Origin: Verrucomicrobiia bacterium
GTDB taxonomy: Bacteria > Omnitrophota > Omnitrophia > Omnitrophales > Aquincolibacteriaceae
Length of the DNA: 32,262 bases
Assembly: GCA_035495615.1 (NCBI GenBank)
Contig: DATJFP010000023.1
Coordinates: 1-32,262 of the forward strand
Direction: 5' to 3'
Shown piece by piece: positions 14,108-32,262 of this stretch. Position numbers and translations under genes: made by a program. How positions within the stretch are numbered: position 1 is the first letter of the stretch; each line of letters begins with the position of its first letter. The notes under the pieces were generated by a model. That model had not been told where the DNA came from and did not search any database. It saw only the letters and a list, made by a program, of their open reading frames with translations.

Positions 14108-14142
14108 AAAAAAGCCCGGCCTTTTCAGGCCGGGCTTTTTTT
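14108..14142. terminator. Strong bidirectional Rho-independent terminator
   Basis: A-run, then GCCCGGCC, a 6-base loop, GGCCGGGC and a run of seven T. The stem is perfect and both strands have a U-tract. It sits between the stop of the plus-strand secreted protein (14085) and the stop of the minus-strand GT2 gene (14181), so it ends both that gene and the whole EPS operon. Confidence 0.95.
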
Positions 14143-32037: not shown

Positions 32038-32262
32038 GACGACGAGAACAATTTGACAACTCGTCGTCATGCGGTGAGGACATGATTCAAGGCCTCACCG
32101 CTTTTTTTGATAATTGAACTCATGGTTTGGCACGGTGAAGCCCAGAAGCATGGCTTCACCTGGTGACGGCGAGATTGATAATTGGGCTCGCCTTAATCAC
32201 GGTGAAGCCCAGAAGCTTGGCTTCACCTGGTGACGGCGAGATTGATAATTGGGCTCGCCTTA
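32038..32262. repeat. Array of hairpin repeats (67-base unit and a divergent copy), continues past the window
   Basis: A 67-base unit occurs at 32131-32197 and again at 32198-32262 (cut by the window end), differing at one base (agcat/agctt). Each unit has two inverted repeats: GGTGAAGCC with GGCTTCACC (9 bp, 9-base loop) and GGCGAG with CTCGCC (6 bp, 13-base loop). Upstream lies a divergent version: GACGACGAG / CTCGTCGTC (32038-32046, 32060-32068) and GCGGTGAGG / CCTCACCGC (32071-32079, 32093-32101), the latter followed by TTTTTTT like a terminator. Loops share the AT-rich TTGATAATTG type. There is no ORF and the array does not look like CRISPR (no unique spacers). It lies upstream of the minus-strand PP-loop gene. 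Confidence 0.8.
32071..32108 (+). terminator. Hairpin followed by T-run within the repeat array
   Basis: GCGGTGAGG and CCTCACCGC form a 9-bp perfect stem with a 13-base loop, followed directly by seven T. On the plus strand this has the form of a Rho-independent terminator, but no plus-strand gene ends nearby in the window. It may end a transcript arising in the gap, or be just one member of the hairpin array. Confidence 0.45.

Follow-up and report, generated by a model that had tools for sequence, protein, structure and literature searches.

The window, by which we mean the whole 32,262-nucleotide stretch of DNA that was analysed, corresponds to contig C23 in a draft genome of 3.16 Mb and 106 contigs, and the end of this contig falls within an array of hairpins. 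The final 225 bases (32038-32262) contain three copies of a gapless 62-nt unit, one of which is inverted: the unit at 32038-32099 lies on the plus strand and both 67-base copies lie on the minus strand (Table 1). Each unit consists of hairpin 1 (a 9-bp stem with a 13-nt loop centred on CCCAATTAATAAT), a 4-nt linker that is often ACCA, and hairpin 2 (a 9-bp stem with a 9-nt loop centred on ATGCTTCTG). In both 67-base copies, one arm of hairpin 1 has TAA as its three outermost bases, which leaves a folded stem of 6 bp. In the inverted unit, hairpin 2 can be extended outward by GC/GC to 32071-32101.

Table 1. Features of the array at the end of the window and the neighbouring gene
Feature	Position	Strand	Details
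Gene, 426 aa	30679..31959	-	no Pfam match
Whole inverted unit	32038-32099	+	R1 score 72.6 bits
Hairpin 1, inverted divergent unit	32038..32068	+	GACGACGAG / 13-nt loop / CTCGTCGTC
4-nt linker joining the two hairpins	32069..32072	+	ATGC
Hairpin 2, inverted unit	32073..32099	+	GGTGAGGAC ATGATTCAA GGCCTCACC, pair 8 mismatched
Remnant, hairpin-1 loop and one arm	32107..32121	-	TTGATAATTGAACTC; direct-repeat family D2
Unit, first 67-base copy	32134-32195	-	R1 score 80.4 bits
Hairpin 2, first 67-base copy	32134..32160	-	GGTGAAGCC ATGCTTCTG GGCTTCACC
Hairpin 1, first 67-base copy	32165..32195	-	folds with 6-bp stem, 13-nt loop
Unit, second 67-base copy	32201-32262	-	R1 score 79.2 bits
Hairpin 2, second 67-base copy	32201..32227	-	loop AAGCTTCTG
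Hairpin 1, second 67-base copy, at contig end	32232..32262	-	

The 225-base stretch contains four perfect 9-bp hairpins (loop 3-16), whereas 1,000 dinucleotide shuffles average 0.005 such hairpins and never exceed one. The same test yields seven counts in the remaining 32,037 bases of the window, all of them from one terminator-like hairpin at 14108-14141; this strong hairpin is flanked by A and T runs, is terminator-like both ways and lies between converging plus- and minus-strand genes. When five units were folded as DNA, their z-scores relative to shuffles were -5.4 to -8.6.

An earlier note on this DNA had described a hairpin repeat array with inverted copies that runs off the window. The array is real, both arm pairs quoted in that note exist, and the repeat reaches the last base and continues on contig C50. 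The window's final 36 nt recur exactly as the first 36 nt of C50. There the array goes on with two more units and a hairpin 1 with its full 9-bp stem, and it ends 3 nt past the stop codon of a PAS-GGDEF gene. Since both contigs share the array, we infer that C23 and C50 probably adjoin in the genome, which would place the array between the start of the 426-aa gene and the 3′ end of the PAS-GGDEF gene, both on the minus strand, with the assembly broken on the array itself. In another genome of the phylum, G114, an identical hairpin with its flanks is found at two contig ends (L136 17695-17727 and L137 22-54), and thus the repeat breaks the assembly there too. The earlier note had allowed that the repeat might prove to be a contig-end artefact or part of a coding gene; neither is the case, as copies also lie within contigs C47, C60, C66 and C105 and the repeat is not part of a conserved gene.

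Copies in the source genome and their pattern of conservation

We built two covariance models, R1 from both hairpins (13 units) and R2 from hairpin 2 (18 rows, from this genome only), and ran each on the whole genome; one unit (L015:4135), in which hairpin 2 is broken, was left out of alignment A1. The search for dispersed copies that the earlier note had suggested was productive: R2 finds 21 hairpin-2 copies (E up to 5.4e-5) on seven contigs, C21, C23, C47, C50, C60, C66 and C105, with 10 of the 21 on C105, a contig of 9.4 kb. The copies are variously dispersed, tandem, inverted and nested. Tandem duplication alone explains several of them; on C66, the 3′ flank of the tandem copies is repeated as well (judged by eye), as expected of simple tandem duplication. 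Hairpin 1 exists in several forms; besides the one with the 13-nt loop, C105 has a GCCGACGG-tact form and C66 a GACGATAGGGC-attc form. The C-type hairpin GATAGGGCATTCGCCCTATC is present in 1 of 58 genomes, which is the source genome. We did not count as a family member the hairpin after the source genome's Y1 gene, which looks similar but is not repeated. No association of note between the elements and tRNAs was found. Two ORF6N genes lie near two arrays (L012 869-1381 and L015 3181-3525), by chance or through a shared preference for mobile regions.

Pairing is maintained across this family despite extensive change in the paired bases. In the R1 alignment of 13 units, 94.9% of 234 cells are paired, and 42 cells are double changes, compared to 15.2 in shuffles and 0-18 with partners slid; similarly, for the 17 distinct hairpin-2 sequences, 95.4% of 153 cells are paired, with 33 double changes compared to 12.5, although both double-change counts are inflated by related rows. 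Where the change is located, in stem or in loop, matters more than these counts. Among five hairpin-2 stem types, identity is 95% in the outer stem and 72% in the loop, but only 28% in the inner five pairs. The parts that persist are thus a hairpin-2 loop of approximately ANGCTTCWR and a stem base that is mostly GGTG/CACC. In 20 of 24 units, an A immediately precedes hairpin 1.

The cells of the two alignments comprise 222 and 146 Watson-Crick pairs and 12 and 7 mismatches, and none is G-U. A drifting RNA should show G-U steps at pairs that change by transition. As some pairs here do change in this way, the lack of G-U cells leans towards DNA rather than RNA, in what is a small sample.

These results bear on two arm pairs from which the earlier note had argued for selection on the fold. 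GACGAG/CTCGTC against GGCGAG/CTCGCC is a true double change. The second comparison, GCGGTGAGG against GGTGAAGCC, set opposite strands side by side, the divergent copy being inverted; read on the same strand (GGTGAGGAC/GGCCTCACC against GGTGAAGCC/GGCTTCACC), one pair has changed on both sides, from G-C to A-T, while another is C-G in one copy and mismatched in the other. The conclusion that such paired changes indicate selection for the fold was too strong when drawn only from them: through template switching, one arm can become a copy of the other, as described in PMC8794818. It gains force once the loop is seen to be conserved and the stem is not, across two families (below), because arm-copying alone does not predict a conserved loop with a variable stem.

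Distribution, position at stop codons and signs of movement

To look beyond the source genome, we ran R2 over 384 genomes of the phylum (E up to 0.001) and obtained matches in four: the source genome and G114, G195 and G219, which all belong to one distant family, f38. A further model, R3, was made from both groups (19 rows, after one row, L133:12011-12044, was dropped before the combined alignment because its 10-nt loop forced a gap) and run over 32 f38 genomes. It matched 4 of the 32, G114, G195, G219 and G387, with 7, 4, 3 and 4 hits respectively, and gave no match in the other 28. With both families combined, 96.5% of 171 cells are paired and there is no one-sided change. The f38 hits outside the R3 training set have, for example, the stems GGTCACGCG, GATCATGCG, GGTAATTCC, GGAGTCGCT and GGTCATGCT with the loops ATGCATCTG, ATGTTTCTG, ACGCTTCTG, ATGCTTCAA and ATGTTTCTA, and most have another hairpin 4 nt upstream, for instance AGCGATAAAC-gaa-GTTTATCGCT. 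R2 lacked hairpin 1, and yet the first hairpin recurs at the same spacing; as judged from these sequences, its recurrence is the strongest sign that the elements of the two families would share a common descent. Of the 40 hairpin-2 copies, 21 from the source genome and 19 from f38, 26 are immediately preceded by a perfect hairpin 1 with a stem of 7 bp or more, joined in 20 of the 26 by a linker of exactly 4 nt; the other 14 have none by this strict test, some of them carrying a shortened hairpin 1.

Occurrence is patchy, in two distant families of one phylum. R1, run in 58 genomes, matches only its own and none of the 57 others, and R2, run in 39 genomes, gave one weak hit in each of five others, all of which we counted as chance; the three whose context was read (L083-L085) are inside ORFs. 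The exact two-hairpin pattern has no hit in 84,980 species genomes (a set from which the source genome and near ones may be left out) or in viral contigs, and a looser form has 10 and 1 hits, respectively, none of which pairs. Single-hairpin patterns gave 0, 0 and 1 hits in viral contigs, and the sole hit, with a broken stem inside an open frame, was rejected. Plasmids and phages yielded no match by blastn, and in the open-access literature that we searched we found neither this repeat nor comparable REPs from this group described.

The elements are strongly over-represented at stop codons. Hairpin 1 starts within -3 to +3 nt of a sense stop codon at 7 of 31 sites (8 if lpxA, below, is included), compared to an expectation of 0.48 sites, as 1.56% of random free positions on the same loci fall in this interval; P is ∼4e-7 for 7 sites, with the 31 sites counted by hand on crude gene models. 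The genes concerned encode a GGDEF protein, a cold shock protein, a 148-aa protein, a DUF3485 protein, two PEP-CTERM proteins and DapB. Most sites are away from stop codons, and some lie on the opposite strand or within an ORF6N gene's tail. One locus in G219 (L133 12421-17240, contig C100) contains PEP-CTERM-like genes with DUF3485 and a sugar-transferase-like gene alongside, and the double hairpin is found at only some of the stops there.

Several copies look like insertions. The element on C47 overlaps the end of lpxA, such that the last codons and the stop codon come from hairpin 1. A search for lpxA matched 26 of 26 genomes of the family, and 3′ ends were compared for 22 loci, up to L112 and leaving aside L099, which the script missed; the source genome's own locus is among the 22. 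No such hairpin occurs within 90 nt after the stop at the 21 other lpxA-like loci, one of which, L112, at only 43% identity, may be a paralogue. We regard this comparison as supportive only, because LpxA tails vary and the comparison spans genera. On C105, the array cuts an ORF6N gene shortly after its domain, and a search for the remainder of the gene after the array did not find it. Nesting is seen in G114, where L154 2861-2990 (minus strand) reads as hairpin 1 and GTAA followed by a GGTGTTTCC arm, then a complete second element, and finally the closing arm GAAACACC; the outer stem of this element is present uninterrupted in L151; moreover, in two L151 copies, a GAAATTGCT hairpin 2 is nested in a GGTGTTGCT hairpin 2. 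Nested copies of this kind offer a relative dating of insertions in the phylum. No target-site duplication was seen, nor, in any close relative, a clean empty site; lpxA was compared across genera.

No enzyme that mobilises the element was found among the Y1 genes met. The source genome has two Y1 transposase genes, and no such hairpins lie beside either of them or beside the Y1 gene met in G195. The Y1 gene on C42 and that of G195 are 41.6% identical, and both adjoin GGGGACAG-type repeats, a different palindrome: runs of GGGGACAG / GGGACAG repeats precede the Y1 genes at L016 1585-1645 (G000:C42) and L138 12901-12980 (G195:C8). These two genes likely encode RAYTs with a palindrome of their own, and thus the RAYT-like enzymes seen here seem to be tied to another repeat. 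Two further loci have palindromes of other kinds. Upstream of the second Y1 protein of the source genome (426 aa, with a long C-terminal extension) are GGTGCCAGGCACC-like palindromes (L017 2100-2160, G000:C84), and in G219 near-identical inverted repeats of ∼30 bp (AAGGGGTCAAGTCTCGACTTGACTACA) surround a 272-aa ORF (L135 12443-12511 and 13320-13392, contig C122), possibly as MITE or transposon ends.

Interpretation and alternatives

The reading that best accounts for these observations, and that we consider probable, is that the units are non-coding, non-autonomous, REP-like mobile double hairpins of ∼62 nt, in which the two hairpins are joined by the 4-nt linker. A trans-acting enzyme would transfer such an element in the form of a single-stranded DNA hairpin and would read the loop, the stem base and the unpaired A before each hairpin, leaving the inner stem letters unread so long as they pair. 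Insertion at stop codons would spare genes, and arrays would grow both by tandem duplication and by the insertion of elements into one another. Of the three options offered in the earlier note, the dispersed, nested and patchy copies thus favour a family of mobile palindromic repeats over a structured RNA or a protein-binding array. More tentatively, and as a reading to which we give somewhat less than even weight, the elements could represent a class of mobile palindromes that is recognised by loop and stem base with any inner stem that pairs, is mobilised in folded, single-stranded form by an enzyme that is not one of the known RAYTs, has spread through an uncultivated phylum and lands at stop codons.

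The position at stop codons raises the alternative of a structured 3′-UTR RNA, in which the two hairpins protect the mRNA end or slow ribosomes, with selection on the RNA and its loop. The sense orientation at the 7 (or 8) stop-codon sites and the conserved loop agree with this, and E. coli REPs no more than 15 nt from a stop codon are described as stalling ribosomes (PMC12306157). The hairpins here may also act in cis on the mRNA or on ribosomes at the stop; once downstream of it, they could affect the end of the mRNA or the ribosomes that terminate there, as a side effect rather than as the shown cause of their spread. We nevertheless consider an RNA function an unlikely explanation of the family, as G-U pairs are missing from the alignments even though transitions do occur among the pair changes, most sites are off stop codons, on occasion on the other strand or in the ORF6N gene tail, and the upstream genes, from GGDEF and cold shock to DUF3485, PEP-CTERM and DapB, are unrelated. 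Moreover, only 4 of the 384 phylum genomes matched, and Rfam has no match at the repeats: in six loci (E up to 1) the only matches are two to cspA, both in L012 and neither at the repeat, and in five f38 loci (gathering threshold) there is no match.

If the palindromes were passive, template switching during replication could copy arm onto arm and produce compensatory changes without selection on the fold. The changes do come in blocks, from Watson-Crick to Watson-Crick without G-U intermediates, as this mechanism, proposed for RNA hairpins (PMC8794818), would produce; it leaves unexplained, however, both the kept loop and stem base beside a randomised stem and the recurrence of the loop and the linker length in a distant family, and we judge it improbable as the whole account, although it may act together with the mobile-element explanation. 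Least probable, in our view, is that the hairpins form a cruciform or hairpin DNA site for a host protein, such as a nucleoid or recombination protein, spread only by duplication. The stability of the DNA hairpins and the conserved loop and stem base fit such a site, but the few copies, patchy among genomes, are ill-suited to a housekeeping role, and the nested copies suggest insertion.

If the mobile-element reading is right, the reversed pattern of conservation separates the hairpin shape that is required, through pairing, from the part that is read, the loop and base. An enzyme of this kind, once found, would provide a hairpin recognised by its loop and usable with any stem and, because stop codons are so strongly preferred, the choice of target can be tested.

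Comparison with known systems

Two candidate classes were set aside from their matches here. Integron attC sites were rejected, as the best match in the genome to TIGR02249, the model for integron integrases, scores 94.6 bits against a cut-off of 265 and a below-cut-off signal is also seen in all 14 controls. Intrinsic terminators were rejected as well, since a T run follows hairpin 2 in 1 of 40 copies, the inverted copy of the window.

IS200/IS605 elements have hairpins at both ends that are recognised as single strands, and they make no target-site duplication. Compared to such ends and their deletion derivatives, the double hairpins have no transposase gene between or beside them, and the Y1 genes here and in G195 adjoin GGGACAG-type repeats instead. 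A REPIN consists of two inverted REPs that are moved as a unit by a RAYT. The element resembles it in being a two-hairpin, non-autonomous unit of comparable size, but its two hairpins are unrelated in sequence rather than an inverted pair of one REP, and no such hairpins were seen beside Y1 genes.

In classical REPs, the stem and tag are kept and the loop drifts; the double-hairpin element, in contrast, varies its stem and keeps its loop, and its copies number in the tens, not hundreds. In other respects the likeness is close, as REPs and BIMEs are described as short intergenic palindromes that are paired or clustered, are often located past stop codons and form sub-families with complementary stem changes (PMC3733652, PMC12306157), all of which holds for the element. 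Complementary sub-families are known for GTAG REPs in particular, in which G-T pairing is frequent (PMC3733652). The size and location are also those of a REP, a palindrome of 20-40 bp mostly outside genes, with 27 nt for hairpin 2 and 31 nt for hairpin 1. The GTAG/CGTC tag is lacking, as GTAG comes after just 3 of the 40 hairpin-2 copies and 0 of 24 hairpin-1 left flanks end in GTAG or CGTC; the copy number is 21 in the source genome and 3-7 per genome elsewhere, compared to the more than 100 per genome given as usual for REPs (PMC2817692); and none of the three Y1 genes, two in the source genome and one in G195, is flanked by the same repeat. On account of tag, copy number and RAYT flanking, we do not class the element as a REP of the GTAG/CGTC kind.

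The fungal mitochondrial double-hairpin elements and the repetitive hairpin elements of sponge mitochondria are described as mobile-looking and as occupying intergenic regions and variable gene parts, with conserved stems and variable loops in the sponge elements (PMC2800124). The conservation seen here is the opposite of that in sponges, and those are organelle elements, so that we note a likeness and claim no sequence relationship. The element thus works like a REP/BIME or a mitochondrial double-hairpin element, and it is new in its combination of a reversed conservation pattern, a two-hairpin unit and a preference for stop codons.
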